Assembly (NCBI GenBank): GCA_947383145.1
Contig: CANDCH010000003.1
Span: forward strand, 62,001-126,000
DNA length: 64,000 bases
Direction of reading: 5' to 3'
Source: an uncultured bacterium
GTDB taxonomy: Bacteria > Bacillota > Clostridia > Oscillospirales > Oscillospiraceae
The translations under genes were made by a program, and so were the position numbers. Below, one piece after another: positions 8,361-22,899 of this stretch. The notes under the pieces are model-generated. The model did not search any database and had not been told where the DNA came from. It saw only the letters and a list, made by a program, of their open reading frames with translations. Within the stretch, counting starts at the first letter, position 1, and the number at the start of each line of letters is the position of its first letter.

Positions 8361-8405
8361 GGCGCCCTCCTCCGCGGCCCGGTTACAATCCGTCTCATTC
8401 CGTCG

Positions 8406-9077
8406 TCAGCCATCTCCGTGGATTTCCAGGAAAAACCTTCTAAAATCCACCGGGCCCGGCCGTTCCATGTCCCGCGCAGCCTCCGCGGCGGTTTGGAAGA
8501 AGCGGTCGGGATAATAGAGGCTGTTTTCCAAAATGTCCGGCTCTTTTTTCAGGATCATGTGCGGGTAGCCCCAGAATCCGATTTCCCAGTAGTTCATCCA
8601 CCTCTCGCCAGATGGGTCAAATGAGCTGGGCGTCCTCGGACGTTCGATTTGCAGCTTCACGCAGCGGATCAGCCGGCCATCCGGGAACGCTGGTTCGGGG
8701 TCCTCCAGGTAGACCGCGTCCACTCGCACCTCGTCCATGGAAATATCGCTCTCCCACCTCCAGGCATTGTAGAACAGATACGTCTGAGGCCCATACTCCC
8801 AGACGCGCTTTCCCAGGCGCTTCACGCGGCTGAGCAGCGGCCTGGGCGCTTCAAACTGAAGCTGGACATTCCCCGGCCCCCGCCCGGAGAGGTATTCCTC
8901 CATCGCGGCAAGGCAGCGCTCCGCCTCCTCCCGGTTCCGGCCGGTGAGAGAGCGCTCGTAAAGCCGCCGGATATTTTCGGCGGTATCATAGTACTCAAGC
9001 TCAGAGTCGCAGAAGGACGGAACCGCGTAATCGGGCACCCGCACCTTGTAAAATTCATCGGGGCTGCTCATGTCCAT
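8406..9077 (-). CDS. Uncharacterised protein of orphan operon
   Basis: 223 residues, no membrane segment. Unrecognised. N-terminal half is charged and probably helical (NIRRLYERSLTGRNREEAER), C-terminal half has many aromatic residues (WMNYWEIGFWGYPHMILKK). The start is at 9075-9077 or six bases later; both follow GGAGG. It overlaps the preceding gene by 23 bases, which suggests coupled translation, and is followed by a 45-base gap before the phosphoesterase gene. Confidence 0.7.
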   Translation of the reverse strand: MDMSSPDEFYKVRVPDYAVPSFCDSELEYYDTAENIRRLYERSLTGRNREEAERCLAAMEEYLSGRGPGNVQLQFEAPRPLLSRVKRLGKRVWEYGPQTYLFYNAWRWESDISMDEVRVDAVYLEDPEPAFPDGRLIRCVKLQIERPRTPSSFDPSGERWMNYWEIGFWGYPHMILKKEPDILENSLYYPDRFFQTAAEAARDMERPGPVDFRRFFLEIHGDG

Positions 9078-9348
9078 TTTGCCTCCATTCTCTTGGCGTT
9101 TCTGAGAGCATGAATTCCATACAGGGGAGAAAATTCAAACTACCCGCCGAAGGCTCCGCAAGCCCCTCCTCCCCATAGAATTCCGAACAGACCGGCCCGA
9201 TGCCGTACAGGTAAAGCGGGTCAAAGGTGTGAGGAACCTGCTCGATGAAGCGGAAATTCCGATACTCCAGCGTCTCCTTCATGCAGATAGAAACCCGGTT
9301 GATCCGGGAGCAGTACCGGCGGATCACGCCAAATGTAATGGGCCGCAT
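9055..9348 (-). CDS. Small uncharacterised protein of orphan operon
   Basis: 97 residues beginning MRPITFGVIRRYC, preceded by AAGGAGG at ten bases. Contains FIEQVPHTFDPLYLYGIGP. No recognised family, no membrane segment. It sits 15 bases after one gene and overlaps the next by 23 bases, so it is a genuine operon member rather than a chance frame. Confidence 0.68.
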   Translation of the reverse strand: MRPITFGVIRRYCSRINRVSICMKETLEYRNFRFIEQVPHTFDPLYLYGIGPVCSEFYGEEGLAEPSAGSLNFLPCMEFMLSETPREWRQNGHEQPR

Positions 9349-9363
9349 AGAATATCGTCCTCC

Positions 9364-10062
9364 TTAATCCGCCGGTCCCCGCCAGAAGATGGTCTCCCTG
9401 TGGGGCTCCTCCTTCGGGCGGAGAAGGATATCCCCGACGCTCGCCCCACTCTCGTCTGCCCGGATCAGGACCCAGTCGTCAAAGCAATCAAATAGGGGCC
9501 TGTGACGGTCCCACAGGGTATACAGCGGCTGCTCCTCCTGAATAAGAGACTCATGAATTTTACGAAGCTCCTCTGGGTCAAACCCGCCGCTCCGCAGGCA
9601 TTCCGCGTAACGCCCGCTGAATATCTCGTCCAGCGCCAGGCGCTCCACCTTTCTCAGAAACGAAAACTCCAGCGAGCGCTCGTCTAGATTTTCCGCAATC
9701 AGCGTCAGCGGGAGCTTCAGCCGGAAGGGGCCGGGCTTTACATAGTACCAGGTCTGATCGGAATCGTAAAAATATCCATAGTCGATGAAGGCAATTCGGC
9801 TGAACATCCAGCGCTCAGAAGGGGACACCCAGTGGGGCATCCCGCTCGGCACGGTACAAATCCCTGACGCCTGCGCTTCGCTGTGGGGCTTCCACAGGTG
9901 CCGGAGCTGTCCCAGGCCAAACAGGTATTCCACCATATCCGGGGTGTTGTAGGAATCCAGCAGCCTTGCCCCGACGGTTTTAAAGTAGCCTCCGTTGCCG
10001 CTCCAGCCATGTTGGACATACTGATCAGACAGCCGTCTGGCAATCACGGAAACATCTCCCAT
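9364..10062 (-). CDS. Uncharacterised protein of orphan operon
   Basis: 232 residues from the ATG at 10060-10062, which follows AAAGGGGG; an upstream in-frame ATG at 10134 lies inside the preceding gene and is rejected. Unrecognised family; aromatic-rich (IDYGYFYDSDQTWYYVKPG) with a helical middle (SFLRKVERLALDEIFSGRYA) and a conserved-looking end (FDCFDDWVLIRADESGASVG). Starts 13 bases after the gene at 10076-11161. Confidence 0.72.
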   Translation of the reverse strand: MGDVSVIARRLSDQYVQHGWSGNGGYFKTVGARLLDSYNTPDMVEYLFGLGQLRHLWKPHSEAQASGICTVPSGMPHWVSPSERWMFSRIAFIDYGYFYDSDQTWYYVKPGPFRLKLPLTLIAENLDERSLEFSFLRKVERLALDEIFSGRYAECLRSGGFDPEELRKIHESLIQEEQPLYTLWDRHRPLFDCFDDWVLIRADESGASVGDILLRPKEEPHRETIFWRGPAD

Positions 10063-10075
10063 AACAGTTCCCCCT

Positions 10076-11161
10076 TTACGCTGGAAAATCCCCCGGCGGC
10101 TCCGGGGCGGCCTCTTCCTGTGCCGTCTGAACAATAGAGAACGGTTCCTGAGGCCCCTTGTCGTCCCCGTGACCCTCCGTGCGGGCCTCCTCAGGCGCTG
10201 CGCAGGGCTCGTCCCGAGCCTCCAGAAACGCCCGCAGCTTATCGCTGGCCAGGGGAACTGTTAGAGGACGCCTCTTTCCCTCTGGGGAGGCGTCCTCTTT
10301 CCGCTCGTCCGGCAGTCCGGGAAGCCGGACGGCGCACTGCTCCGCCATCCCCTGCGTCTGGGACTCCCGGAGCCCTTGGAGGCTGTAGACGGCAGGCTCG
10401 TCCCAATTGTAGCATTGGGGGGATCTCACCCGCTGCGCCACCCGCCCGTCCCGATAATCCGTCCGATTGAACCGCAGCGTGACCCGGTCCCCGCACTCCG
10501 CAGCGACGAAGATCTCATAGTCGGGATCCGGCTCTGGGGAATCCATCATCAGAATGCTATGATCCACGTTGACAATCAGATGCTGCACGACGGCGCAGCC
10601 GTCCAGGACGGTCTGGCCGTGTTCCCCATTGTACGCATCCGGCTCATTTCGGATGTTCAATCGCCGCCACGTGCCCTCCTCCCAGAGCTCCGCGCGCTCC
10701 AGGGGGTGTTTGTACCGGGAACTGAGCGTGAGCAGAACCTGCTTCTTTTCCCGCTGGGGCGCGTTCTCGTCCAGCCGGAGCATGGTCCCGGCGTATACCG
10801 TGAACTTGCCCAGGAAGGTGTCCACCCGCAGGGGGATCACCCCGAAATTGGCCACCGCGATGGGCTTCGCCGGCCCGGCGGTCTGCCGGATGTATCCGCT
10901 GGGACGGTCCCGGAGAAAGACATACGTCTCTTCCCCGGCCTGGACCTCCAAAACGTCCATGCCCGCGCTGTCGCGCCAGAACTGCGCGGCCAGATCCTGG
11001 GGTTGGCCGTCCCGCCACAGGAACACATAGGCGTTGCTGTGGGACCCGGAGTGGAGGCAGTTTGGTTGGCGGGGGTTCACAGTGCCGGTGTAAATGGCCA
11101 GCTCGCCCTCCTGGACGCCCGCTTGCGGCATCTCCCTCTCCGTGTAGCTGAAATAAGTCAT
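10076..11161 (-). CDS. Uncharacterised beta-rich protein of orphan operon
   Basis: 361 residues. Contains at least one copy of the motif shared across this operon, VANFGVIPLRVDTFLGKF, followed by TVYAGTMLRLDE. The last ~80 residues are charged and low-complexity (LPGLPDERKEDASPEGKRR; EEAAPEPPGDFPA), probably disordered. No signal peptide. Its ATG overlaps the stop of the preceding gene by four bases (ATGA), which indicates translational coupling. Function unknown. Confidence 0.73.
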   Translation of the reverse strand: MTYFSYTEREMPQAGVQEGELAIYTGTVNPRQPNCLHSGSHSNAYVFLWRDGQPQDLAAQFWRDSAGMDVLEVQAGEETYVFLRDRPSGYIRQTAGPAKPIAVANFGVIPLRVDTFLGKFTVYAGTMLRLDENAPQREKKQVLLTLSSRYKHPLERAELWEEGTWRRLNIRNEPDAYNGEHGQTVLDGCAVVQHLIVNVDHSILMMDSPEPDPDYEIFVAAECGDRVTLRFNRTDYRDGRVAQRVRSPQCYNWDEPAVYSLQGLRESQTQGMAEQCAVRLPGLPDERKEDASPEGKRRPLTVPLASDKLRAFLEARDEPCAAPEEARTEGHGDDKGPQEPFSIVQTAQEEAAPEPPGDFPA

Positions 11162-12009
11162 ACGCCCTCCTCCTCTCCGTATGCGCCCAATTCCTCTATG
11201 CTGTATATCTGGTTATCGGCGGGAACCTCCGCCGTCCGCCCCCCCGGCCCGGTCAGGGGGAGGGGCGTTTTTCCTTTATTGCGGACAAACCACCGGCTGA
11301 CGCCATAGCCCTTGATGTCCAAAAGCTCCAGCCGGGGCTGGTCCAGGAAGTAGCCGGAGCAGGATTCCAGCACGCCCAGGCAGTCATCGCCGCAGAAAAC
11401 AGGGCAGATGTGGCTGTCGATCCGGGTTCCAGGCGACAGGCAGTCCAGCCCGCCCCGATGCCAGGGGCCCTCTCCGTATTTAACGTGCGCCGCGCTGACC
11501 TGGAAATCCAGCGGATTGCCGCCCAGGTCCAGCAGAACCTGGGTGGGAGCGATTCGCGCCGGGGTATTTGACGGGACAAGCGCCTCCGTATATCCGGCGC
11601 AGACGCGGTAGGTCATGCCGTCCGGCGTCTGGAAGCGCAGGGAGCGGTCCCCTCCGTTGCGGATCCATATGGTGCCGTCCCCCGTTGCCGTGACCGTGAA
11701 AAAATTGCTGTTGGGATTTCCGTTCCGGCGCAAGCTACAGCCCCGTTTCCGATAGTTCTCCAGTTCCTCGCTCCGCTGCCCCAAGGGACGGGAGATGAGG
11801 GCGCTATCACAGCAGCGTTCGGACTGCACCGACAGCAGCATTCCGCCGCTCAGCTCCACCATGGAAGCATCCAGTTCCTCGAATCCCGCCTCCGTTTTGA
11901 TGGCGGCCCGCTTCAGCGGCAGCTCCCCCGGCTTGAACTCCCCAAAGACCAGGCACAGGTCGTCCTGCCGCGCCTCCGGGAAGGATACTTTACAGCTTTG
12001 AAGCTCCAT
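11158..12009 (-). CDS. Uncharacterised beta-rich protein with two motif copies
   Basis: 283 residues from the ATG at 12007-12009, which overlaps the stop of the preceding gene (TAATG); longer in-frame starts would lie inside that gene and encode Gly/Pro-rich frame shadow. Two copies of the shared motif are visible: IWIRNGGDRSLRFQTPDG and WFVRNKGKTPLPLTGPGG. Cysteines are frequent (RCCDSAL, CPVFCGDDCLGVLESCSG), so disulfides or metal binding are possible. Family and function unknown. Confidence 0.75.
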   Translation of the reverse strand: MELQSCKVSFPEARQDDLCLVFGEFKPGELPLKRAAIKTEAGFEELDASMVELSGGMLLSVQSERCCDSALISRPLGQRSEELENYRKRGCSLRRNGNPNSNFFTVTATGDGTIWIRNGGDRSLRFQTPDGMTYRVCAGYTEALVPSNTPARIAPTQVLLDLGGNPLDFQVSAAHVKYGEGPWHRGGLDCLSPGTRIDSHICPVFCGDDCLGVLESCSGYFLDQPRLELLDIKGYGVSRWFVRNKGKTPLPLTGPGGRTAEVPADNQIYSIEELGAYGEEEGV

Positions 12010-12551
12010 TATGCCTGCCCTCCCTTTTCCCGCGCCTGACGGCGCGCCTCCTCCACTTCCGCGTGCCGGCGGCGCGCTTCCTCCACCCCCTTCAGGACCT
12101 CCGGGCTCTTGAGGTACTCCGCCCAGAAGCTCTGGAGCTCCGGACTGTCGGGGTCCAGCTCCTGAATGGTTGTGTACTCCCCGGGGGCGAGCCATTCCCC
12201 GTCCACTGTCAACGGCTCTTCGCCGCTGTTGTAGAACACGGCGCAAGGGAAGTTCAAATCCTCATGGTGCACGCGGATGCCGTTGGGGCGGCGGTCCCTG
12301 GAGCTGGGCCGGGTCTCGTGGAAGGCCACAAGGTCGATCCCGTCCTCGGACATTCGGACCACAGCCTCGTCCGCCCGGTCGCCGTCGCTGGTGGTCTCAT
12401 AGAAGATCTCCCGCAAGCCGTCCCCGGCGGTCCAAAGGAAGGCGCCCGCCAGCATGGAGTCGTACCCCCGGTCCAGGCAGACGACGATCTTTTCCCGGGA
12501 CATAAGCTCAGGGTCGCTCTGGATGGCGCCGGTCATTTTCTTGATGTTCAT
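12009..12551 (-). CDS. Uncharacterised protein, first gene of orphan operon
   Basis: 180 residues. Its central part (REIFYETTSDGDRADEAVV; CAVFYNSGEEPLTVDGEWL then APGEYTTI) is clearly related to the divergent gene at 13018-13416 (ILWNRGRRALAVDGEPLSPG). The C-terminal 35 residues are a charged helix (KGVEEARRRHAEVEEARRQA). No signal peptide. It follows a ~230-base leader with a terminator-like hairpin and a strong promoter at 12786-12814. Function unknown. Confidence 0.75.
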   Translation of the reverse strand: MNIKKMTGAIQSDPELMSREKIVVCLDRGYDSMLAGAFLWTAGDGLREIFYETTSDGDRADEAVVRMSEDGIDLVAFHETRPSSRDRRPNGIRVHHEDLNFPCAVFYNSGEEPLTVDGEWLAPGEYTTIQELDPDSPELQSFWAEYLKSPEVLKGVEEARRRHAEVEEARRQAREKGGQA

Positions 12552-12614
12552 GATGATTCCGCCTTTCCGTTTTTATATGTTTGAGAAGCCTGTCCTGTCG
12601 CAATTTCAATTGAA

Positions 12615-12655
12615 AAGCCTGTTCTCCGAAACGTAATTTCCGAAAAACAGGCAGA
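12615..12655 (-). terminator. Terminator-like hairpin in leader of orphan operon
   Basis: On the reverse strand GCCTGTT and AACAGGC close a stem that is followed by TTTT, between the operon promoter (12786-12814) and the first start codon at 12551. It could act as an attenuator or make a short RNA. Confidence 0.45.
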
Positions 12656-12785
12656 AAAAAAGGCGCAACAACAGAACCCTTCCGTGACCCGCTCAGAAAT
12701 CACATCGGTTCCGCCGCATTCGCCTGACAGAACAAACTATTCGGTTTTCAGCTGAAGTCCAGCAACGGACGCTTCCTATTTTCAG

Positions 12786-12814
12786 ACTATAACACCAATC
12801 GGCCCTTCTGTCAA
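12786..12814 (-). promoter_or_regulatory. Promoter of the nine-gene orphan operon
   Basis: Reverse strand TTGACA (12809-12814), exactly 17 bases, TATAGT (12786-12791). A near-consensus sigma-A promoter. Confidence 0.75.
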
Positions 12815-12882
12815 GGGGATGTTCAAAAATTCTTCCGATTTTTCTGAGCCGCTTTCCGGCAGCCGTCCTACGGAAGTTTTCC

Positions 12883-12911
12883 TTGACAGCTCCGCTTCCC
12901 AGTGATATTCT
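12883..12911 (+). promoter_or_regulatory. Promoter of the divergent small gene
   Basis: TTGACA (12883-12888), exactly 17 bases, TATTCT (12906-12911), about 105 bases before the start codon at 13018. Confidence 0.72.
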
Positions 12912-12951
12912 TGTGGCAACAGGCAAAGGCGATTCATTTGGTCAGGCTCAG

Positions 12952-12996
12952 GCGGCCACGATTCTCCCTCAGCGGAGGCATCGTGGCCGCCTTTAT
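12952..12996 (+). terminator. Terminator-like hairpin in leader of the small gene
   Basis: GGCGGCCACGAT and ATCGTGGCCGCC are perfect 12-base arms around a ~17-base loop, followed by TTTATTTTG. It stands between the promoter at 12883 and the start at 13018, mirroring the leader hairpin on the other side. Confidence 0.6.
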
Positions 12997-13017
12997 TTTG
13001 TGAAAGGGGAATCGGAA

Positions 13018-13416
13018 ATGGAAACGGCGCGTGAGAATTTTTTCAGGGACAATCCGGAGGGGGCCGTCGTCGCGGCTCTGGACAGCCGGGAGGAGGGGCT
13101 CCTGTTCGGCGCGGTGGAGCTGCGGGCCGGGAGGAAGGCGTGGCTGGACTACGAATTGGAATCCAGTCCGGATGGCGATACGGTCTCTCTTTACCGGGAG
13201 GCGGAGGACGCGCCTGTGCTGGAATACCACGCCAATGGGCGGCGGGTGGACACCGTGACGGCCCCGGACCGGCTGCTGATTCTCTGGAACCGGGGCCGGC
13301 GCGCGCTGGCCGTGGACGGAGAGCCGCTTTCGCCGGGGGAGATAACCTCCAGCGTCCCCCAAAACGCCGCCCCTTGGCTGCTCCGGTTTGCCGCATGGCT
13401 GCCGGATTGGGAGTGA
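13018..13416 (+). CDS. Small protein related to the first gene of the orphan operon
   Basis: 132 residues from the ATG at 13018, preceded by AAAGGGG; an upstream in-frame start would run through the promoter and hairpin. It shares the segment ILWNRGRRALAVDGEPLSPG with the divergent 12009-12551 protein (VFYNSGEEPLTVDGEWLAPG), so the two are paralogues. No signal peptide or membrane segment. It ends five bases before the convergent membrane-protein gene. Function unknown; shared regulation with the divergent operon is inferred from the matching leader design. Confidence 0.72.
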   Translation: METARENFFRDNPEGAVVAALDSREEGLLFGAVELRAGRKAWLDYELESSPDGDTVSLYREAEDAPVLEYHANGRRVDTVTAPDRLLILWNRGRRALAVDGEPLSPGEITSSVPQNAAPWLLRFAAWLPDWE

Positions 13417-13420
13417 CGCC

Positions 13421-14500
13421 TTATTTGCCGGAGCCAGAGAGATTCAACTTTTTCAGACCTTTGAAGTCCCTCCAGTGCTCCTCTGCCCAGGCCCGGCGTC
13501 TGGCGTCTTCGCGTTTCACCCATTCATTTCCCCGCGCAGAGGCGTCATGAATGGCGTCCTGAATCCCTTGCGGCAGGACGTTTACCACCGCGGTTGCCGC
13601 TTTTTCGCCCAGCTTGGCCGCAAGCCACGTCACAAAGAAGGATGCCGCGATCCGCACCACGCCGATGGCGTCCAGCACCTGCCAGGCCACGTCCAACGGC
13701 CCAAGCTCGTTTTTTCCCAACCATGTCATAACAAAGCTGTAAGCCAGCAGCGCCAGTAAAAACAGCGCCAGGGAAACCGGATTATACGCAAACGTATGAA
13801 CCGTTGTTTTGTTGAAAAAGTCCACCGTGGCCTTCCCCAGCCGCCCCGGCAGGCTCTGGGAGTCTATTCCGCCCTCCCGCTCTGCCGCAGGGCGGATGTT
13901 CAGCTTTTCTGCCATCAGGTCAAAAAAGGGCATTTTTACCAGAAGATTCTGCAAAAATCCAAAAAGGATGGAAAAAAATAAGGTGTTGATGGCGACATAT
14001 TGGACCGCCGCAATCACTGTGCCTGCGGCGGCCATGACGATTCCGCCTCCGTTTTCCGCCTCGAATTTGACCGCCACCCGAAGAAAGACCACCGCCTGAC
14101 TGAGCTTCCCCAGGAGCGTGCCGTCGCTTCCCTCTGCCAGAGCATCCACTCCGGCGGGAAACAGGCCGTCCATCAGGCGGTTATAGCCCGAGATGAGCAA
14201 AAACAGCACCCCTGCCGAGCATAAAACATCCACGAGGCCCTCAATGCCATGCCGTATATTTTCCTTCACCGCATGCTTCTGAGAGCGCGGAAGGCAGGTA
14301 TCCAATATCTTTCCGACAATCGTTCTGTAAAGCTTGAAGCATCCAAATCCCATAAAGGACAGAAAGCGAAAGCAAGCCCTCCAAATGCCGCTTTCCGACA
14401 TATCCGCCATATCCTGTCCCGTCCAATAGGGCACATTGAAGAAAAACAGAAAAAAAGAAGCCGCTAAGGACAGAAAAAATGCAATGCCGTTTAAAATCAT
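13421..14500 (-). CDS. Multi-pass membrane protein, uncharacterised
   Basis: 359 residues from the ATG at 14498-14500, preceded by AGAGAGGG; a longer frame upstream has no coding character. About six hydrophobic segments are visible (ILNGIAFFLSLAASFFLFFF at the N-terminus, DVLCSAGVLFLLISGYN, GGGIVMAAAGTVIAAVQYVA, LALFLLALLAYSFVMTWLG, and others). The C-terminal ~55 residues are charged and cytoplasmic-looking (EWVKREDARRRAWAEEHWRD). Family not recognised. Its own promoter lies at 14553-14581. Convergent with the small gene ending at 13416. Confidence 0.72.
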   Translation of the reverse strand: MILNGIAFFLSLAASFFLFFFNVPYWTGQDMADMSESGIWRACFRFLSFMGFGCFKLYRTIVGKILDTCLPRSQKHAVKENIRHGIEGLVDVLCSAGVLFLLISGYNRLMDGLFPAGVDALAEGSDGTLLGKLSQAVVFLRVAVKFEAENGGGIVMAAAGTVIAAVQYVAINTLFFSILFGFLQNLLVKMPFFDLMAEKLNIRPAAEREGGIDSQSLPGRLGKATVDFFNKTTVHTFAYNPVSLALFLLALLAYSFVMTWLGKNELGPLDVAWQVLDAIGVVRIAASFFVTWLAAKLGEKAATAVVNVLPQGIQDAIHDASARGNEWVKREDARRRAWAEEHWRDFKGLKKLNLSGSGK

Positions 14501-14552
14501 ATCATGCCGCCCTCTCTCATATTGCGACAGGCTTCGCGCCGTCTTGCGTTTC

Positions 14553-14581
14553 AAGGTAGCATGTAATGGAGGAAAAGTCAA
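14553..14581 (-). promoter_or_regulatory. Probable promoter of the membrane protein gene
   Basis: Reverse strand TTGACT (14576-14581), 17 bases, TACCTT (14553-14558), about 50 bases before the start codon. Confidence 0.5.
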
Positions 14582-14631
14582 GAGTCGGCGGCGCAGAGCA
14601 GAACGGCTGCCCAGTTCCCGAAAAAATACAT

Positions 14632-14660
14632 TTGCAAATAAGCTCAGCGGAGTATATACT
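14632..14660 (+). promoter_or_regulatory. Promoter of the teichoic-acid/choline operon
   Basis: TTGCAA (14632-14637), 17 bases, TATACT (14655-14660), 70 bases before the first gene. The seven following genes overlap or are separated by under 35 bases, so this may drive the whole locus. Confidence 0.68.
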
Positions 14661-14729
14661 ATTGGCTTGGATTTGAGCGCCGGCGCATTCTGACGGATTC
14701 CGCCGGCGGCTTCGCAGAGGGGATTGGAA

Positions 14730-16481
14730 ATGGAAAGCATCAGAGAAAAGCTGCGGGCGCTTTGGGAGGACAGGCGAAGCTGGAGGGTCCGGCTGCCGCT
14801 GGCTCTCCTGCTCCCGTTCACCTTCGCGTTCACCTTCATCCTGTTTGGGCCGTGTGAACTCTACATACAAAATATGCAGGAGATGCCCTTTCCCTTTCTC
14901 ACCCTGGTCCCGGCCCTGCTGCTGGCGGGGGGCTGCGTATCCGCCGTCCTGCTGCTGGTTCTGCTCCTGCTGCGGGGCAAGGCCTTCAACCTGGCGGCCT
15001 CCCTCCTGTTTGCCGGGACGCTGGCGGGCTACCTCCAGGGAAACTTCTGGAACATCGGCCACGGCGCCCTGGACGGCAGCGCCGTCAGCTGGACCTCCTA
15101 CAAACTCCCCATGCTGCAAAACTGTCTGATCTGGCTTCTGGTTTTCGGGGCGGTGTTCCTCCTGCTGTACCTGAGCCGGAGGGCCTGGACCCGCGGGATC
15201 GAGTTGGCCTGCGCCGTCCTGATCGGCGCGCAGGCCGCCGCCCTTCTCGTGCTGCTGGTCCAGGCCGGCCCCGGCCGGGTGTTCCGGGTGGGGCAGGAAA
15301 AGACCTACGTCTCCCGGGACGGCATCTACGAGGTGGCTCCCGAGAACAACGTCATCGTGTTCCTGCTGGACCGGCTGGACAACCGCTTCACCGACGAGGC
15401 GCTGGAGCTCCACCCGGAGTGGCGGGAGCGGCTGGGCGGCTTCACCTATTACCACGACTTCACCGGCAGCTATATCAACACCCGCCCCGCCATCACCTAC
15501 TTTCTGACCGGCGTGACCCACGACTACACCGTTCCCTGGGAGGGCTACTTCCGGCGGGCCTGGTCGGAGCCGGTCTACCAGCTGCTTTCGGACATCCACG
15601 CCGCCGGGTACAAAACCAGGGTCTACACCGACTGCGCCTATGTGTTCGGCGAGGCGGAGTATGTGGAGGGCTTCGTGGACAACATCCACCGGGACGTCCA
15701 GACGGTCCACCACCGGCTGATGCTGGAAAAAATGCTGGCGCTGTCCGCCTACCGCTATGTGCCGGAGGCCCTCAAGCCCTACTTTCAGATGTACTCCGGG
15801 GAGCTGGGGGACGTGGTGTCCGTCCACGGAAAGGGGGGCGGCATGGAGAACAACCTGTTCACCGTGGACGACGTGGCCTTCTGGCAGGGCTACCGGGAGC
15901 GGGGGCTCACCGTGGACCCGGACGCCCCGGGGGCATTCCAGTTCTACCACTTTGAGGGGGCCCACTCTCCCTATGTGATGGACGCCGACGCCCGGCCGGT
16001 GGAGGGCGGCACCCGGAACGGCCAGATCGCGGGCAATATGGAGATGATTTTCCGCTACCTGGACGAGCTGGAGGAAAAGGGACTCTTTGAGGACGCCACC
16101 ATCGTCATCACCACCGACCACGCCCGTCCCCCCGGGGAGGCGGGCGACATGAGCGACGTGTGCGGCAGCCGGGTGGCCACCCTGATGGTCAAGCCCGCCG
16201 GAACCGGCAGGGCCGGGTCCCTCCGGCTGTCCGGCAAGCAGGTGTGCCAGGACAACCTGCGGGCATCCATCGCCGCCTGGTGCGGGCTGGACCCCGCCGG
16301 CTACGGCCGCACCCTCGAGTCCATCGGCGAGGACGAGCAGACCACCCGGTATCTCTGGGTCCGCGGGGAGCACGGCTCCGTGGTGGACAAGATATTCACC
16401 TTCCGCGTCGTCGGGGACGCCAACGACTTCTCCAACTGGGAGCTGGTCCGCGAGGACACCATGGACTACATCGGACTGTAG
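14730..16481 (+). CDS. LTA-synthase-like membrane protein (alkaline phosphatase/sulfatase fold)
   Basis: 583 residues. Four to five membrane helices fill residues ~18-180, followed by an extracellular domain of the alkaline-phosphatase superfamily from about 190. Likely catalytic and metal-binding segments are NNVIVFLLDRLDN, a nucleophile region YINTRPAITYFLTG, FYHFEGAHSPY and ATIVITTDHARPP. This layout matches lipoteichoic acid synthase and other phosphoglycerol or phosphoethanolamine transferases, which move a headgroup from a lipid to a surface polymer. Start at the ATG 14730 (GAGGGG seven bases before) rather than the TTG at 14724. First gene of the choline/teichoic acid locus. The exact donor is not deducible. 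Confidence 0.85.
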   Translation: MESIREKLRALWEDRRSWRVRLPLALLLPFTFAFTFILFGPCELYIQNMQEMPFPFLTLVPALLLAGGCVSAVLLLVLLLLRGKAFNLAASLLFAGTLAGYLQGNFWNIGHGALDGSAVSWTSYKLPMLQNCLIWLLVFGAVFLLLYLSRRAWTRGIELACAVLIGAQAAALLVLLVQAGPGRVFRVGQEKTYVSRDGIYEVAPENNVIVFLLDRLDNRFTDEALELHPEWRERLGGFTYYHDFTGSYINTRPAITYFLTGVTHDYTVPWEGYFRRAWSEPVYQLLSDIHAAGYKTRVYTDCAYVFGEAEYVEGFVDNIHRDVQTVHHRLMLEKMLALSAYRYVPEALKPYFQMYSGELGDVVSVHGKGGGMENNLFTVDDVAFWQGYRERGLTVDPDAPGAFQFYHFEGAHSPYVMDADARPVEGGTRNGQIAGNMEMIFRYLDELEEKGLFEDATIVITTDHARPPGEAGDMSDVCGSRVATLMVKPAGTGRAGSLRLSGKQVCQDNLRASIAAWCGLDPAGYGRTLESIGEDEQTTRYLWVRGEHGSVVDKIFTFRVVGDANDFSNWELVREDTMDYIGL

Positions 16482-16508
16482 CCATCACCGCAAAGGGGGT
16501 TTTCCGCC

Positions 16509-17036
16509 TTGAAAAAAGCTGCTGTTTTTCTGTACTTTTTCCTGTTCGGCTCCATGCTGTTCTCTGTGACGGCGCTGGCCTATATCGACCCCTCCGCCAT
16601 GACCTACATGATCCAGATCGCCGCGGGCGCCGCCATCGCCGCGGGCGCGGGCGCCAGCTACTATTTCCGCCGGCTCAAGCGGCGCTTCTCACGCCGGTCC
16701 GGCGGAGCGGACCGGGCCGCGGGCCGCTCCGCCTTGGACGATGACGACGACACCGGCTACGGCGACTACGAGCTGGACGGCGCCCAGCCGGCCCCCGCGC
16801 CCGCTCCGGCGGCGGAGCCCGTCCGGGCCGCGCCGCCTCCCCTTGAGGAGTCCGCCGCCCCGGAGCGCTCTCCGGCACAGCCGGCGTCCGCCGCCCCGGA
16901 CCCCTTTGACGAGACCGGCGGCGCGGCCGGCCTGCTGGCCGAAAACCGGGAACTGCGCCGCCTCCTGGCCCAAGAGCGCCGGAATGTGGAGGAGCTGAAG
17001 CGGGCCCTCCACATCTGCACCGCTCCCCGCCGGTGA
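16509..17036 (+). CDS. Small membrane protein with YIDPS motif and coiled-coil tail
   Basis: 175 residues starting at a TTG preceded by AAAGGGGG. An N-terminal signal-like helix is followed by YIDPSAMTYMIQ and a second membrane helix (IAAGAAIAAGAGASYYF), then a basic patch, an Ala/Pro-rich disordered stretch, and a terminal coiled coil (LLAENRELRRLLAQERRNVE). A YIDPxxxxY motif in front of a membrane helix is common in small proteins beside surface-polymer sulfatase-fold enzymes. Probably an accessory or scaffold of the neighbour; function is inference. Its stop overlaps the next start (GTGA). Confidence 0.7.
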   Translation: MKKAAVFLYFFLFGSMLFSVTALAYIDPSAMTYMIQIAAGAAIAAGAGASYYFRRLKRRFSRRSGGADRAAGRSALDDDDDTGYGDYELDGAQPAPAPAPAAEPVRAAPPPLEESAAPERSPAQPASAAPDPFDETGGAAGLLAENRELRRLLAQERRNVEELKRALHICTAPRR

Positions 17037-17548
17037 GGACCCGGCGGCAAAAGCGGGAGCGCTGGTGGACGCTCCCCCTGCTGGCCCTGGGGCTGGCCGC
17101 CCTTCTCAACCGGTTCGTGCTCATCAACGCCCGGGTGCCCTCCGGGTCCATGGAGCCCGCCATTCCCAGCGGGGCCATGGTGCTGGGGGACCGCACCGCC
17201 TATCTCCGGGCGGACCCCCAGGTGGGGGACGTGGTGTTTTTCCGCCATGAGGAGGAGTTCGGGCGGGATATCCTCATCAAACGGGTGGCGGCGGTGGGCG
17301 GGCAGGTCTTTTCCGTCCGGGACGGGCAGGCCTATCTGGACGGCCTGCCCCTGGCCCAGGGCCGGTCCCCCGTCCTGGCCGGGGCCGACTTTCCCGACAC
17401 GGCGGTGCCGGAGGACTGCCTGGTGGTGCTGGGGGACAACCGGGAGGCCTCCAACGACTCCCGGTACTGGGCGGACCCCTTCGTTCCCCGGCAGGACGTT
17501 CTCGGCCGGGCCGTATTGGTCTATTTTCCCGGCTTCCATCTTCTTTGA
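17033..17548 (+). CDS. Type I signal peptidase
   Basis: 171 residues with one N-terminal membrane anchor (residues ~12-30). It has the S26 family dyad: nucleophile serine in VPSGSMEPA (S39) and general-base lysine in LIKRVAAVGG (K83), plus the downstream GDNREASNDSRYW box. It removes signal peptides from exported proteins at the outer membrane face. The GTG start overlaps the preceding stop. A dedicated signal peptidase inside a teichoic-acid locus is unusual; it could process a locus-specific exported protein or serve generally. Confidence 0.93.
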   Translation: MRTRRQKRERWWTLPLLALGLAALLNRFVLINARVPSGSMEPAIPSGAMVLGDRTAYLRADPQVGDVVFFRHEEEFGRDILIKRVAAVGGQVFSVRDGQAYLDGLPLAQGRSPVLAGADFPDTAVPEDCLVVLGDNREASNDSRYWADPFVPRQDVLGRAVLVYFPGFHLL

Positions 17549-17574
17549 CAGAAAGCGAGGCGCCGCATCACCCT

Positions 17575-19686
17575 ATGGATATCATAAGCACCGCCGCCGG
17601 AACCCCCCTGGGCTGGCTGATGTACGGCTGCTACCGGCTGCTGGGCAGCTACGGCGGGGCCGTCATCCTTTTCACCCTGCTCACCAAGGCAGTCATGTTT
17701 CCCATCTCCCTGCTGGTGCAGAAAAACTCCATCAAAATGGTGAAGATGAAGCCCCAGCTGGATATGCTCCGCTATCAATATGTGGACGACAGCGACGCCT
17801 TTTTGGACGCCCAGACCGCCCTGTACAAGCGGGAGGGCTACAGCCCCATGGCGGGAGTGGTCCCCCTGCTCCTCCAGATTCCCATCATCTTCGGCCTGCT
17901 GGATGTGGTGTATAAGCCGCTGAAGCACCTGCTTCACCTGAGCCCCCAGCTTCAGCTGGCCTTCACGGAGCGGACCGCGGAGCTGATGGGCGTCACCCTG
18001 AACGAGCTGGGCTCCACCGCCCAGCTGGCGGTGGTGGAGCGGGTGCGGGCCATCCCGGACAGCTTTGCCGCCATCCCCGGCGGCGCGGAGGCCGCCGCCC
18101 GGATTCAGGCGCTGAACATGAACTTCCTGGGGATCAACCTGGCCGCCGTCCCCGACGCGCGGGTGCTGGACGGCCTGTTCCTCATCCCCGTGCTGGCGGG
18201 GCTGTCCGCCCTGCTGATGTGCTGGGTGCAGAACAGGGTGAACGTCCTCCAGATTGAGCAGAACAAGCTGTCCCAGTGGGGGATGACCCTGTTCATGATC
18301 GCCTTTTCCACCTTTTTCGCCTTCATCGTCCCCGCCGGAGTGGGGCTGTACTGGACCTTCGGCAACCTGTTCTCCATCGGGGTCATGTTTCTGTGCAACG
18401 CCGTATACTCCCCCAAGGCGTACATCGACTACGGCTTGCTGGATGAGATGAAGCGCACCGCCGCCCAGGACAGGGCTAGGCGGCGGGAAAACGCCGTCCG
18501 GGCCAAAGCGGACTACAAGCGGTTCTTTTCGCCGGAAAACCGGGGAAACATGCGGATCATGTTCTACTCCGAGGGCAGCGGATTCTACAAATATTTCCGG
18601 GCCCTCATCGAGGCCCTGCTCCGGGACACCCAGCTCACCATCCACTATGTCACCAGCGACCCCGGCGACGCCATTTTTCAGAACGGCAGCCCCCGCATCC
18701 GGCCCTACTACGTGGACGAGACCCGGCTGATTTCGCTGATGATGAAGCTGGAGGCGGACATTGTGGTGATGACCACCCCCGACCTGGAAAAGTACCACAT
18801 CAAGCGCTCCCGGGTGCGGGAGGATGTGGAATATATCTTCATAGACCACGGGTGCAGCAGCGACAATCTGGCCTACCGCACCGGGGCGCTGGACGCCTAC
18901 GACACCCTGCTTGTGGTGAGCCGGGAGCAGGCCGTCGAGGCGCGGGCCATCGAGAAGCTGCGGCACGGGAAGAAAAAGCGCATCATCGAGTGCGGCTACG
19001 GCCTCATTGACGACATGACCGCCGCCTATCAGGCCATGGGCCCGGTGGAAAACGAGAAAAAAACCATCCTCATCGCCCCCTCCTGGCAGTACGACAACAT
19101 CATGGACTCCTGCCTGGACGACATGGTGGACGCCCTGTACGGCAAGGGCTTCCGCATCGTCGTCCGGCCCCACCCCCAGTACGTCCGGCGGTTCCCCGCC
19201 CGAATGAGGGATATTCTCCGCCGTTATGAGGACCGGATGGGGGAGGATTTTGTCATTGAGACGGACTTCTCCTCCAACGTGACGGTGTACACCGCCGACC
19301 TGGTGATCACCGACTGGAGCGGCATCGCCTTTGAGTTCTCCTTCACCACCGGCAGGCCCTCCCTGTTTGTCAACACCCAGATGAAGGTGGTCAACGAGGA
19401 CTGGCAGAAAATCCCCCTGGTCCCCTTCGACATCACCGCGCGCTCCAAGGTGGGCCGGCAGGTGGAAAAGAGCCAGGTGAAAGAACTGGCCCCCGTGGTG
19501 GAGGAGCTGCTGGCCTGCCGGGAGGACTACCGGGAGCGGATCGACGCCCTGAAGCGGCAGCATTTCTACAACCTGGGCCACAGCGGCGAGGCGGGGGCCC
19601 GGTATATTATCCACCGCCTCTGCCGCCGGTACGGGCCGGAGGGCCTGGAGCCCGTCCCCGCCGCCGGAGCGCGCCGCGGGCGGTGA
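17575..19686 (+). CDS. YidC/Oxa1 insertase fused to CDP-glycerol glycerophosphotransferase
   Basis: 703 residues. Residues ~1-290 are a YidC-type insertase: VILFTLLTKAVMFPISLLVQ, KREGYSPMAGVVPLLLQIPI and three further membrane helices; the groove residue that is usually arginine is lysine here. Residues ~325-690 are a TagB/TagF-type glycerophosphotransferase with MRIMFYSEGSGFYKYF, YIFIDHGCSSDNL, VVRPHPQYVRRF and ADLVITDWSGIAFEFSF, the His and Asp-Ser motifs that polymerise glycerol phosphate from CDP-glycerol. The frame is continuous across the junction. Start: ATG 17575; a TTG at 17545 overlapping the previous stop is the alternative. It sits among LTA-synthase-like, choline kinase and cytidylyltransferase genes. 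The union of membrane insertion and polymerisation in one chain is unusual. Confidence 0.88.
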   Translation: MDIISTAAGTPLGWLMYGCYRLLGSYGGAVILFTLLTKAVMFPISLLVQKNSIKMVKMKPQLDMLRYQYVDDSDAFLDAQTALYKREGYSPMAGVVPLLLQIPIIFGLLDVVYKPLKHLLHLSPQLQLAFTERTAELMGVTLNELGSTAQLAVVERVRAIPDSFAAIPGGAEAAARIQALNMNFLGINLAAVPDARVLDGLFLIPVLAGLSALLMCWVQNRVNVLQIEQNKLSQWGMTLFMIAFSTFFAFIVPAGVGLYWTFGNLFSIGVMFLCNAVYSPKAYIDYGLLDEMKRTAAQDRARRRENAVRAKADYKRFFSPENRGNMRIMFYSEGSGFYKYFRALIEALLRDTQLTIHYVTSDPGDAIFQNGSPRIRPYYVDETRLISLMMKLEADIVVMTTPDLEKYHIKRSRVREDVEYIFIDHGCSSDNLAYRTGALDAYDTLLVVSREQAVEARAIEKLRHGKKKRIIECGYGLIDDMTAAYQAMGPVENEKKTILIAPSWQYDNIMDSCLDDMVDALYGKGFRIVVRPHPQYVRRFPARMRDILRRYEDRMGEDFVIETDFSSNVTVYTADLVITDWSGIAFEFSFTTGRPSLFVNTQMKVVNEDWQKIPLVPFDITARSKVGRQVEKSQVKELAPVVEELLACREDYRERIDALKRQHFYNLGHSGEAGARYIIHRLCRRYGPEGLEPVPAAGARRGR

Positions 19687-19718
19687 GCCCGCCCAAACCG
19701 TCAGGAGCGAATCGTTTT

Positions 19719-20669
19719 ATGAACACTCAAAACCGTCCCCCGTCCCTCCTGCTGAAGCCGGAAGAGGTCCGGGCAGTCTGCCGGGCGCTCCATGCCGCGC
19801 CGGAGGAAATCACCCAGGTCTCCGCCCTGAAGCGGGGCATGACCAACCGCTCCTTCCTGCTCTCCTGCCGGGGGGAGCGGTACATCCTGCGCGTCCCCGG
19901 CGAGGGGACCGCGCGGCTCATCAGCCGCCGCCAGGAGGCCGAGGTGTACCGCGCCCTGCGGGGGCTGGACCTGTGCGAGGATGTGCTCTGCCTGGACCCG
20001 GAAACCGGCTATAAGCTCACCCGGTTCATTCCGGGCGCCCGGGCCTGCGACCCCCTGAACCCGGCGGACACCGCCGCCTGCATGGACAAGCTCCGGGACT
20101 TCCACAGGCTGGGCCTGCGGGTGGACCACGAATTCGACCTCTTCGGCCGGATGGACTTCTACGAGAGCCTGTGGGAGGGCCAGCCCTCCGCTTATCCGGA
20201 CTACCAGGAGACCAAGGCCGCCGTGCTGGCCCTGCGGCCCTTCCTCGAGGCCAGTGCCGGAACCCGGGTCCTCACCCACATCGACGCCGTGCCGGACAAC
20301 TTCCTGTTCGTCCCCGGCGGGCGCGGCGGTCAGGCGCTGCGCCTCATCGACTGGGAGTACGCCGCCATGCAGGACCCCCATGTGGATGTGGCCATGTTCT
20401 GCATCTACGCCATGTACGGCCGGGAGCAGGTGGACCGGCTCATCGGCCAGTACTTCGCCGGGGACTGCCCCATTCGGACGAGGATCAAAATTTACTGCTA
20501 TATCGCCGTGTGCGGCTTGCTGTGGAGCAATTGGTGCGAGTACAAGGCCCGCCTGGGGGCGGCGTTCGGCGGCTACGCCCTGAGGCAGTACCGCTACGCC
20601 CGGGAGTACTGCGCCGTGGTCCGCCGGGAGCTGGAGCGGCTGGGGGAGGGACTTCCATGCACACCGTGA
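19719..20669 (+). CDS. licA: Choline/ethanolamine kinase-like phosphotransferase (LicA type)
   Basis: 316 residues from the ATG at 19719 (AGGAG upstream); a GTG at 19683 overlapping the previous stop is possible. The kinase-fold catalytic loop VLTHIDAVPDNFLF and the metal-binding LRLIDWEYAAMQDPHVD match LicA/choline kinases. It would phosphorylate choline using ATP. Genes for a LicC-type cytidylyltransferase and a BCCT transporter follow directly, so the three reactions of choline uptake, phosphorylation and CDP activation are all encoded here. Ethanolamine as substrate cannot be excluded. Confidence 0.82.
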   Translation: MNTQNRPPSLLLKPEEVRAVCRALHAAPEEITQVSALKRGMTNRSFLLSCRGERYILRVPGEGTARLISRRQEAEVYRALRGLDLCEDVLCLDPETGYKLTRFIPGARACDPLNPADTAACMDKLRDFHRLGLRVDHEFDLFGRMDFYESLWEGQPSAYPDYQETKAAVLALRPFLEASAGTRVLTHIDAVPDNFLFVPGGRGGQALRLIDWEYAAMQDPHVDVAMFCIYAMYGREQVDRLIGQYFAGDCPIRTRIKIYCYIAVCGLLWSNWCEYKARLGAAFGGYALRQYRYAREYCAVVRRELERLGEGLPCTP

Positions 20670-21385
20670 AGCGTGCGGTCATCCTGGCCGCGGGGGAGGG
20701 CAGGCGGATGCGGCCCGTCACCCTGACCACCCCCAAGCCCCTGGTCCGGGTGAACGGCGTGCGGATGATCGACACCGCCATCCGGGCCCTGCGGGCCAAC
20801 GGCATCCGTGAGCTCTACGTGGTCACAGGCTGGCTGGGGGAGCAGTTCCGCCCCCTGGAGGCGGAATACCCCGGCCTCACCCTCATCGAAAACCCCTGGT
20901 ACGGCAGCTGCAACAACATCTCCTCCCTCTACGCCGCCCGGGACCACCTGGAGGACGCCATGATTCTGGACGGCGACCAGCTCATCCGAAACCCCGCGGC
21001 GCTGGCCCCGGACTTCCAGCGCTCCGGCTACAACGCGGTGTGGACGGACCGGACCACCGGCGAGTGGCTGTTGACGGTGGAGGACGGAGTGGTGGCCTCG
21101 TGCAGCAGGACGGGGGGTTCCCACGGCTGGCAGCTGTACAGCGTGTCCCGGTGGACCGCCCGGGACGGGCGGCGGCTCCGGCGGCACCTGGAGCTGGAAT
21201 TTGAGCGAAACCTGAACCGGGACATCTACTGGGACGACGTGGCCCTGTTCTGCCATCGGTTGGACTACCGGCTGGGAATCCATCCAATGGCGCCGGGGGA
21301 TGTGGCGGAGGTGGACACCCTGGCCGAGCTGGCCGAACTGGACCCCGGCTACCGGCACTACCTGAGCGGAGGAGGCTTGACGTGA
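20657..21385 (+). CDS. licC: Phosphocholine cytidylyltransferase-like NTP transferase (LicC type)
   Basis: 242 residues from ATG 20657 (GGGAGGG upstream), overlapping the kinase gene by 13 bases. The nucleotide-binding loop VILAAGEGRRMRPVTLTTPK and MILDGDQLIRNP (metal-binding Asp) are those of sugar-phosphate/choline-phosphate nucleotidyltransferases; IENPWYGSCNNISSLYAA matches the LicC subgroup. It would make CDP-choline from CTP and phosphocholine. Context with a LicA-like kinase and BCCT carrier supports that over sugar activation. Confidence 0.84.
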   Translation: MHTVKRAVILAAGEGRRMRPVTLTTPKPLVRVNGVRMIDTAIRALRANGIRELYVVTGWLGEQFRPLEAEYPGLTLIENPWYGSCNNISSLYAARDHLEDAMILDGDQLIRNPAALAPDFQRSGYNAVWTDRTTGEWLLTVEDGVVASCSRTGGSHGWQLYSVSRWTARDGRRLRRHLELEFERNLNRDIYWDDVALFCHRLDYRLGIHPMAPGDVAEVDTLAELAELDPGYRHYLSGGGLT

Positions 21386-22899
21386 AGCGCAGAGAAATCG
21401 ACTGGACCATCACCCTGGTCCCCCTGGGGTGCGTCCTGGCGCTGAGCGCGCTGTTTTTCGCCTTCCCGGAACGCTCCAATGAGATGCTGGGGCAGATCCG
21501 TTTCCTGCTCGGGGACACGTTCGGCGTCTATTACCTCGCCATCGGGCTGGGGATATTTCTGCTTTCCCTGTACGCGGCGGGCTCCAAATACGGGGACATC
21601 GTGCTGGGCGAGCCGGGGGAACGGCCCAAGTACTCTTTTTTCACCTGGGGCTCCATGATGTTCACCGCGGGGCTGGCGGCGGACATCCTGTTCTACTCCT
21701 TCTCCGAGTGGATTTTGTACGCCGCTGACCCCCACATCGCCCAGCTGGGCAGCCTTCAGGACTGGGCCGGGGTGTTTCCCCTCTTCCACTGGAGCCTCAT
21801 CCCCTGGGGGTTCTACCTCATGCTGGCGGCGGCCTTCGGGTTCATGCTCCACGTGAGAAAGCGGAACCGCCAGCGGTACTCCGAGGCCTGCCGCCCTCTC
21901 TTGGGCAGGCATACCGACGGCCTGCCGGGGCGGCTCATCGACCTGCTGGCGGTGTTTGCGCTGCTGGCGGGCACGGCCACCACCTTCGGCCTGGCCACCC
22001 CCCTGATGGCGGGCATTTTGGACGAGCTGTTCCATCTCCCCCTCAGCCGGGAGGCGGCGGCCGTCCTTATCCTGCTGGCCACCTGCGCGGTGTATACCTA
22101 CTCCCTGCTCCACGGCTTCAAGGGCATCAGCCTGCTGGCCAAGTCCTGCGTCTATCTCTTCTTCGGCCTGCTGGCCTATGTGCTCCTCCTGGGCGGGCAA
22201 GCCCGGTATATCATCGAGACCGGCTTCTCCTCCCTGGGGCGGATGATCCAGCACTTTTTCGAGCTGGCCACCTTCACCGACCCCCAGCGGACCACCTCCT
22301 TTCCCCAGAACTGGACCATCTTTTACTGGTCCTACTGGATGGTGTGGTGCGTGGCCGCTCCCTTCTTCATCGGCGGCATCTCCCGGGGACGGACGGTGCG
22401 GCAGACCATTCTGGGGGGCTATGCCTTCGGGGTGGGCTCCACCATCGTCAGCTTCATCGTGCTGGGCAACTATTCCATGGGCCGGCAGCTGTCCGGCGCG
22501 GCGGACTTCCTCGCCCAGTACCGGGAGTCCGGCGACCTGTACGCCCTCATCATCTCCATGATCCGAACCCTGCCCGGCTCCGGCTTCGTGCTGGCGCTGG
22601 TGCTGGCGGCCATGGCGGCCTTTTACGCCACCTCCTTTGACTCCATCGCCCTCATCGCCGCCTGCTACAGCTGCCGCCGCCTGGAGCCGGAGGACAGCCC
22701 CCACCGGGGCCTCCAGCTGATGTGGTGCCTGCTGCTCATCGCCCTGCCCGTCGCCCTGGTGTTCTCCGAGAGCTCCATGGCCAGCCTCCAGTCGGTGAGC
22801 ATCATCGCCGCCTTCCCCATCGGGGCGGTGATCCTGCTCATCACCGCCAGCTTCTTTAAGGACGCGGGCCGCTGCCTCCGGGAGCGGGGCCTGCGCTGA
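21382..22899 (+). CDS. BCCT-family choline/betaine/carnitine transporter
   Basis: 505 residues, about twelve membrane helices. BCCT landmarks: SMMFTAGLAADILFYSFSEW and the signature FYWSYWMVWCVAAPFFIGGI followed by SRGRTVRQ. It imports quaternary amines. The GTG start overlaps the previous stop (GTGA) with GGAGGAGG upstream. In classical lic loci the carrier is LicB; here a BCCT protein holds that place, which supports choline as the substrate. No gene follows before a bidirectional terminator. Confidence 0.92.
   Translation: MKRREIDWTITLVPLGCVLALSALFFAFPERSNEMLGQIRFLLGDTFGVYYLAIGLGIFLLSLYAAGSKYGDIVLGEPGERPKYSFFTWGSMMFTAGLAADILFYSFSEWILYAADPHIAQLGSLQDWAGVFPLFHWSLIPWGFYLMLAAAFGFMLHVRKRNRQRYSEACRPLLGRHTDGLPGRLIDLLAVFALLAGTATTFGLATPLMAGILDELFHLPLSREAAAVLILLATCAVYTYSLLHGFKGISLLAKSCVYLFFGLLAYVLLLGGQARYIIETGFSSLGRMIQHFFELATFTDPQRTTSFPQNWTIFYWSYWMVWCVAAPFFIGGISRGRTVRQTILGGYAFGVGSTIVSFIVLGNYSMGRQLSGAADFLAQYRESGDLYALIISMIRTLPGSGFVLALVLAAMAAFYATSFDSIALIAACYSCRRLEPEDSPHRGLQLMWCLLLIALPVALVFSESSMASLQSVSIIAAFPIGAVILLITASFFKDAGRCLRERGLR

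Follow-up and report, generated by a model that had tools for sequence, protein, structure and literature searches.

A YidC–TagF-type fusion protein in a choline operon of an uncultured Oscillospiraceae bacterium: a proposed LicD-free system for phosphocholine decoration

In a stretch of 64,000 nucleotides from an uncultured gut bacterium of the Oscillospiraceae (contig CANDCH010000003.1, positions 62,001 to 126,000; hereafter called the window), we have analysed an operon of seven plus-strand genes at 14730–22899, which are tightly packed and partly overlapping. One of these genes encodes a single polypeptide composed of a YidC/Oxa1 domain, a linker and a TagF-type domain, and it is accompanied by genes for a choline kinase, a cytidylyltransferase and a carrier. 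We propose that the operon is likely to be a phosphocholine decoration system without LicD, in which a TagF-type transferase linked to YidC would work with a relay enzyme resembling LtaS. Judging from the sequences compared, it is quite probable that the C-terminal domain transfers phosphocholine from cytidine diphosphate (CDP)-choline, namely as a LicD substitute on another fold; CDP-choline is suggested as the donor because the donor genes adjoin the fusion and because residues near a catalytic histidine follow the headgroup. Comparison backs four parts of this proposal, namely the fusion itself, the presence of donor genes beside it, the residues that track the donor and the physical fusions among the core parts.

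A first-pass annotation of the window had described YidC and TagF domains in one reading frame, and this was borne out. The fusion gene (17575–19686, plus strand) carries the YidC/Oxa1 domain (60KD_IMP, PF02096) at residues 36–285 (17650–18399), with about five membrane segments by hydropathy and with scores above the cut-offs of both PF02096 (118 bits vs 35) and TIGR03592 (111 vs 84.3). The TagF-type domain (Glyphos_transf, PF04464), namely the proposed phosphocholine transferase, lies at residues 337–672 (18553–19560) and scores 47.1 bits against a cut-off of 22.1. Residues are counted from the TTG at 17545 that begins the longest open reading frame (ORF), but the ATG at 17575 (residue 11 of that frame) is more likely to be the true start, because many relatives align only from residue 8–11. 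An artefact at the fusion joint, against which the annotation had cautioned, can be ruled out, whether as an assembly join or as a frameshift: both halves share one ORF in 54 of 55 related loci, most of which come from separate assemblies, and in the remaining one (L073) a contig end truncates the fusion. These 55 loci comprise 50 from a scan of genome contigs, whose titles point for the most part to Lachnospiraceae, Oscillospiraceae and other Clostridia, together with four further regions and the locus L098. The YidC–TagF protein is therefore a real, conserved domain fusion. Its distribution is patchy, nonetheless; the fusion was found in nine of 59 other related genomes (45–82% identity), and when 398 genomes drawn from the phylum were searched with the C-terminal half, the fusion was recovered whole from G452 and from the genome of the window, with one more match (G369) being a fragment at a contig end.

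As to the neighbours with which the fused halves occur, a survey that the annotation had also called for, 43 of 54 fusion loci adjoin genes supplying or activating a zwitterionic headgroup. Choline genes (kinase, cytidylyltransferase and BCCT carrier) stand at 15 of the 54 loci, and genes for 2-aminoethylphosphonate (AEP) at 23, eight of them with an AEP transporter and a cytidylyltransferase and 15 with AEP synthesis (all four genes in 12, a partial set in three). A cytidylyltransferase alone is found at two loci, and one fused to a CobD-like decarboxylase part at three, next to the YidC–TagF fusion (L065, 8134–9948; L067, 8134–9948; L081, 6961–8778, minus strand); the product of these last proteins may be a CDP-aminoalcohol, for instance CDP-ethanolamine or CDP-aminopropanol. 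Two fusions are present in one genome (G015), where L082 adjoins AEP synthesis and L083 AEP import. Among the representatives scanned, phosphoenolpyruvate (PEP) mutase, phosphonopyruvate decarboxylase and AEP aminotransferase exceeded the curated cut-offs of Pfam or NCBIfam, and the matches to AEP transporter models were below cut-off. On a tree of the transferase domain, at least eight cassette changes are required over the labelled rows, and choline accounts for three of them; the labels separate AEP import from AEP synthesis, so that not every change is a change of headgroup.

For comparison, 20 ordinary PF04464 loci were taken from the same class; only one of them was near headgroup genes (L144, with a PEP mutase about 8 kb from the PF04464 gene), and none of the 20 had choline genes. 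The contrast between 43/54 and 1/20 is strong, with the reservation that related loci are not independent. The control loci are the best matches (≥110 bits) in 20 of the 22 genomes having such a match, and some of them are short (L131 is 3,994 bases); the loci of the remaining two genomes, L158 and L159, have no cassettes either. Weaker signals in the controls were a 27-bit cytidylyltransferase-like match in L128 and PEP-mutase matches of 129–153 residues in four loci, which are presumably TagD-like proteins. Also, among the loci with low-scoring PF04464 matches, L155, the PF04464 match of which is not fusion-like, has genes for a PEP mutase and for a decarboxylase at a distance of about 5 kb, and L157 has a 36-bit cytidylyltransferase match.

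The neighbouring genes are paralleled by residues in the transferase domain. We aligned 43 fusions over 713 columns (10 choline rows and 33 others), leaving out L026, L027, L032, L035, L036, L039, L042, L049, L059, L064, L071, L072 and L073 for redundancy, truncation or space. H435 and H543, the latter within an RPHP motif, are present in all 43 and, as matched by motif context, would correspond to H444 and H584, the two catalytic histidines of TagF, whose roles have been described (PMC11666461). Columns 440 and 443 are the only two of the 713 that part the 10 choline rows from all 33 others. They lie five and eight residues past H435 (18847–18873 for H435 to A443), and the pair D440/A443 is found in the window and in 15 of 15 choline loci but in none of 40 other loci; this check of the loop covered also the loci left out of the alignment, with L053–L055, which the search pattern missed, read separately. 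On the tree, the choline rows fall into one clade, with L050 outside it; the best tree needs two changes, and D440/A443 may have arisen in one or two events.

The cytidylyltransferase encoded nearby varies in parallel. At the position of D105 in LicC, as equated between LicC and PntC by sequence alignments, the residue is D in 16 of 16 choline cases, the window included, whereas it is E in 22 of 22 scorable fusion loci of the AEP or cytidylyltransferase-only type (proteins with ≤100 bits, from L065, L067, L072, L081 and L082, were dropped from the scoring). Outside the fusion loci, E also occupies this position in L095, in L096 and in an AEP cassette that lies unlinked in the host genome. A difference between D105 in LicC and E104 in PntC has been described by Rice et al. 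2019 (PMC6697681). We interpret the parallel patterns as a fitting of both the cytidylyltransferase and the transferase to one headgroup.

The gene content of the host genome (2.48 Mb, 85% complete) is consistent with this proposal. The annotation had noted the lack of LicD at the locus, and indeed, neither LicD (PF04991) nor a second PF04464 protein was found in the whole host genome at its 85% completeness. No TagD (TIGR01518) exceeded the cut-off in any of ten fusion-bearing genomes checked, host included; the single weak TIGR01518 match of the host falls in a PEP mutase, on its cytidylyltransferase domain, and G026, one of the ten, has a 148-residue CTP_transf_like protein with 98 bits against a cut-off of 165. 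LicD was present in two of the ten genomes and absent from eight. In the DNA of the fusion loci themselves, 54 of 55 have no LicD-like ORF, the exception being L052 with two of them (14858–17081), and this near-absence supports the fusion as the transferase. LicD-like ORFs were also noticed near AEP genes without the fusion, namely in L095 (372–1187), L096 (16385–17233) and L155 (16713–17627, minus strand). Because such ORFs occur in L052, L095, L096 and L155, the LicD and TagF types can co-occur; the survey of LicD thus helps the case for the fusion as a transferase and weakens the comparison with homologues lacking YidC, which is described below.

Two further products of the operon, an enzyme resembling LtaS and a small membrane protein, belong to the core machine of the fusion; both are found joined to a partner in certain relatives. 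The LtaS-like membrane enzyme of the alkaline phosphatase superfamily (14730–16481, plus strand; ATG at 14730, about 583 residues) has hydrophobic segments between residues 24 and 179. The window protein itself gave no Pfam match at 1e-3; five of six scanned relatives exceed the PF00884 cut-off, and when 26 relatives are made into a profile, it hits the solved LtaS structure at E 2.4e-10 and brings the DH motifs into register. D216, T253, H409, H414, D465 and H466 are invariant in all 26 relatives, while the LtaS alignments stop short of the threonine nucleophile of LtaS. The small protein (16509–17036, plus strand) is an operon member missed by the annotation and has a signal-peptide-like start, AxA, YIDPS and then a membrane-like stretch; we call it the YIDP protein. 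LtaS-like matches occur in 43 of 55 fusion loci and YIDP-protein matches in 47 (YIDP in 44, YLDP in three), of which 45 are genes of their own and two are fused. Physical fusions comprise a single ORF of 1200 residues with LtaS-like, YidC and TagF parts (L057), one with YIDP and LtaS-like parts (L098), and one with TagF followed by YIDP (L073). If the N-terminal start of YidC and the catalytic domain of LtaS lie outside the cell here, as they do in YidC and LtaS generally, the domain order in L057 is topologically sound and would place the TagF part in the cytosol together with CDP-choline.

More distant TagF-type homologues (L094–L097, 23–34% identity) have no YidC part. L094, L095 and L096 are within AEP cassettes, L097 from the same genome as L096 adjoins choline genes, and none of these four loci has an LtaS-like match. 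Nine homologues, L095–L097 plus L148, L149 and L151–L154 (genomes G530 and G505), resemble the small protein of the window in starting with YIDPGTGS or YIDPGTGG, followed by a membrane segment; L094 has no start of the YIDP type. G530 and G505 each hold several YidC-less TagF homologues, and weak LtaS-like matches were seen at L152 and L154.

In the YidC half, position 48 of the groove is K in 41 and R in two of the 43 aligned fusions and aligns with an arginine of the solved YidC2 chain, which we take to be R72 of Bacillus halodurans YidC2 in both number and role. K in place of R was considered as a hallmark of the fusion but was ruled out, because five ordinary clostridial YidC proteins compared also have K. 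A stretch of invariant residues (Q229, N230, N233, Q236, E238 and Q239) is, by eye, absent from those five proteins. The fusion as the sole YidC of the host is likewise ruled out by a separate housekeeping YidC, which neighbours ORFs named by eye as rnpA-, yidD- and Jag-like. The YidC half probably anchors the transferase at the membrane. Furthermore, Escherichia coli YidC scrambles lipids in vitro, and insertases do so in simulations via the insertion groove (PMC10491306); because of this scrambling, the joining of YidC to an enzyme that transfers headgroups hints that a decorated lipid is let through. That the YidC half passes a lipid-linked product across the membrane would, by this analogy, be possible, and we hold it as a doubtful idea. 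The annotation had suggested that polymer synthesis is coupled to a membrane-embedded chaperone, which found no direct support here but is still conceivable, or else that the YidC part is a re-used membrane scaffold or polymer conduit, which may be so.

The system might accordingly be pictured as follows. Choline would be imported by the BCCT carrier and phosphorylated by the LicA-like kinase, and the LicC-like enzyme would make CDP-choline in the cytosol. From CDP-choline, phosphocholine would then be moved by the cytosolic TagF-type domain onto an acceptor on the inner side of the membrane, which is somewhat likely to be lipid-linked. The YidC domain would keep the enzyme membrane-bound, and the zwitterionic lipid product may cross to the outer face by way of the hydrophilic groove of this domain. 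There the LtaS-like phosphotransferase would hand over either the headgroup or the whole decorated lipid, with a surface polymer or protein as the final recipient; such a headgroup relay, which is suggested by analogy with the phosphocholine transfer of PptA (PMC10434233), is tentative. The YIDP membrane protein would be a subunit of this machine, and in relatives the same core would be plugged to AEP import or AEP synthesis. A more specific version, in which one polypeptide makes a zwitterionic lipid (phosphocholine or AEP on a glycolipid or diacylglycerol) and moves it through the YidC groove, with the LtaS-like enzyme spending the headgroup outside and returning the lipid, is less likely still; in that case, a member of the YidC family would serve as a dedicated device for flipping lipids, coupled to their synthesis, and exchangeable cassettes would set the headgroup.

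Several observations weigh against phosphocholine transfer by the fusion. The WHG motif around the first histidine of TagF is missing; the preceding residue is mostly D or P and never W in the 43 fusions, the G is unconserved, and a profile of the C-terminal domain found no TagF in the PDB set searched. The support from D440/A443 is limited to one clade plus L050, for which a single origin is not rejected (p-AU 0.086), and the D/E switch has an exception in L097, where E is found beside choline genes. Donor genes are missing from 10 of 54 fusion loci, five of which end ≤1.3 kb away on one side, and the cassette of L072 is ambiguous. Of the homologues without YidC, the six from G530 and G505 (L148, L149 and L151–L154) have no cassette within about 10 kb, and a LicD-like ORF lies near those of L095 and L096; in these two and in L052, the transfer could be due to LicD. 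In the host, moreover, absences are soft because the genome is 85% complete, and the unlinked AEP cassette (L164, C12:17501-37500, at 7535–16573 on the minus strand; cytidylyltransferase, AEP aminotransferase, PEP mutase and decarboxylase) means that CMP-AEP (the cytidine monophosphate derivative) is probably also present.

Among the alternatives, the fusion might be a glycerol-phosphate polymerase or primase of teichoic acid, with choline added to the polymer by an enzyme encoded elsewhere. Membership of PF04464, the LtaS-like neighbour and the 98-bit protein of G026 would fit this; the results on TagD and LicD in the ten genomes would not, and the switching of choline and AEP neighbours with matching residues near the catalytic histidine would be left unexplained. 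The annotation had assigned the C-terminal half to such a polymerase, which is probably wrong given the lack of TagD above cut-off and of any other PF04464 protein, the adjacent choline or AEP donor genes and the donor-tracking residues; we regard the polymerase or primase as very unlikely. Hardly more probable is that the LtaS-like enzyme is itself the phosphocholine transferase and that the fusion does another job such as glycolipid priming: CDP-choline is cytosolic while this class of enzyme acts outside, the donor-tracking residues are in the TagF domain, and L094–L097 do without an LtaS-like match. A member of the same superfamily, PptA, nonetheless puts phosphocholine on pilin (PMC10434233).

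The remaining alternatives concern the YidC half and are each rather unlikely. It might still be a protein insertase for the YIDP protein or the LtaS-like enzyme, with its link to the transferase serving only co-localisation. Small membrane proteins of the YIDP kind are typical clients of YidC, and the basic residue at groove position 48 is kept in 43 of 43 fusions as it is, in the form of K, in the five ordinary clostridial YidCs. Homologues with a YIDP segment fused to TagF, however, show no YidC match at their loci, the invariant polar stretch Q229–Q239 is not common to the ordinary YidCs, and a housekeeping YidC is already in the genome. Alternatively, the half might do no more than anchor the protein in the membrane, without acting as an insertase or letting lipids pass; indeed, versions without YidC bear a plain YIDP membrane segment instead, so that a simple anchor can suffice, but YIDP is kept as its own gene in 45 of 55 loci, and the charged groove position and the conserved polar loop exceed the needs of an anchor.

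With respect to the other genes of the operon, the annotation had listed LtaS-like, signal peptidase, LicA-like, LicC-like and BCCT neighbours, and all were found on the plus strand. Signal peptidase I (17033–17548) matches PF10502 (E 3.2e-31) and exceeds the cut-off of TIGR02227. The LicA-like choline kinase (19683–20669) is over the cut-off of PF01633, and its best solved relative is 4r77 (E 2.8e-32), which we take to be the choline kinase of Streptococcus pneumoniae. The LicC-like enzyme, a predicted cytidine triphosphate (CTP):phosphocholine cytidylyltransferase (20657–21385), has the S. pneumoniae enzyme of that name (LicC, 1jyk; E 2.2e-27) as its nearest solved relative; an AEP-type cytidylyltransferase from L038 also matches the LicC structure best, so the top structural match alone leaves the substrate undecided. 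The BCCT carrier (21382–22899; PF02028, E 5.3e-118) is probably a choline importer, judging from its neighbours. A 472-residue ORF on the minus strand (13421–14839) overlaps the start of the operon; it has hydrophobic stretches, its real start is probably further in, and it gave no Pfam or NCBIfam match at 1e-3.

Some observations were made in passing at other loci. Winged-helix, cytidylyltransferase and choline kinase domains are joined in one protein in L097 (16391–18283, minus strand) and in L030 (12191–13951), and a DUF6020 protein lies upstream of the fusion in L067 (3336–5264; Lachnospiraceae bacterium COE1, whose record carries no MAG label). The unlinked AEP cassette of the host adjoins a flagellin gene in L164, which suggests, by analogy, AEP on flagellin; this modification has been reported for Clostridioides difficile (PMC8861647). 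Between the flagellin gene and the cassette is a 742-residue ORF (12633–14861, minus strand) with no Pfam match, a candidate flagellin-modifying enzyme.

The annotation did not know the fusion as characterised, and we likewise found no description of it among the open-licence papers listed. The nearest known pathway is Lic-1 (LicA-LicB-LicC-LicD) of S. pneumoniae, which has choline uptake, kinase and cytidylyltransferase in common with the window operon; LicA and LicC are both represented there, while the operon has a BCCT carrier, no LicD and a TagF-type transferase joined to a YidC domain. In S. pneumoniae, furthermore, the flippase TacF checks the phosphocholine content of teichoic acid (PMC13385700), whereas no flippase is among the seven genes. 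With TagF/TagB CDP-alcohol phosphotransferases, the fusion shares a PF04464 domain above the Pfam cut-off and the two motif histidines, but it lacks WHG, scores low (47 bits) and probably uses CDP-choline or CMP-AEP instead of CDP-glycerol as a donor. The nearest functional precedent is the TagF-like CD0244 of C. difficile, which is necessary for the phosphothreonine headgroup of the type A flagellin glycan and for which CDP-threonine has been proposed as the donor (PMC10714395). Its cluster CD0240–CD0244 also encodes CD0242, a nucleotidyltransferase likened to CTP:phosphocholine cytidylyltransferase; the system acts on N-acetylglucosamine on flagellin, and the portion of that report available to us names no YidC part or choline genes. 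The phosphonoglycan pathways with PntC (PMC6697681) have the same AEP genes and cytidylyltransferases as the AEP-type fusion loci, but the neighbours given in that paper are LicD-like phosphotransferases or glycosyltransferases, with YidC and TagF unmentioned. YidC/Oxa1 insertases share a domain above Pfam and NCBIfam cut-offs, whereas the window protein is a paralogue beside a housekeeping copy, is fused to an enzyme and has its own invariant polar loop. In terms of the reaction proposed, the fusion would resemble mf1 of Mycoplasma fermentans, which takes phosphocholine from CDP-choline and places it on a membrane glycolipid, namely a glucosyl-diacylglycerol (PMC11982090); mf1 is nonetheless of the LicD family and the C-terminal domain of the fusion is of the TagF type.

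If the proposal is correct, it would name a transferase for gut Clostridia that have genes activating choline or a phosphonate but no LicD. The activity would then reside on a fold without such an assignment in the open-licence papers found, CD0244 with threonine being the nearest case. Phosphocholine carried by gut commensals is of relevance to antibodies and pentraxins of the host, and D440 and A443 may allow the headgroup to be predicted from sequence. To our knowledge, this is also the first time that an enzyme of lipids or glycans is seen to incorporate a YidC domain; the fusion is probably dispensable for general insertion and is hence suited to the question of whether proteins of the YidC fold are cellular lipid scramblases.

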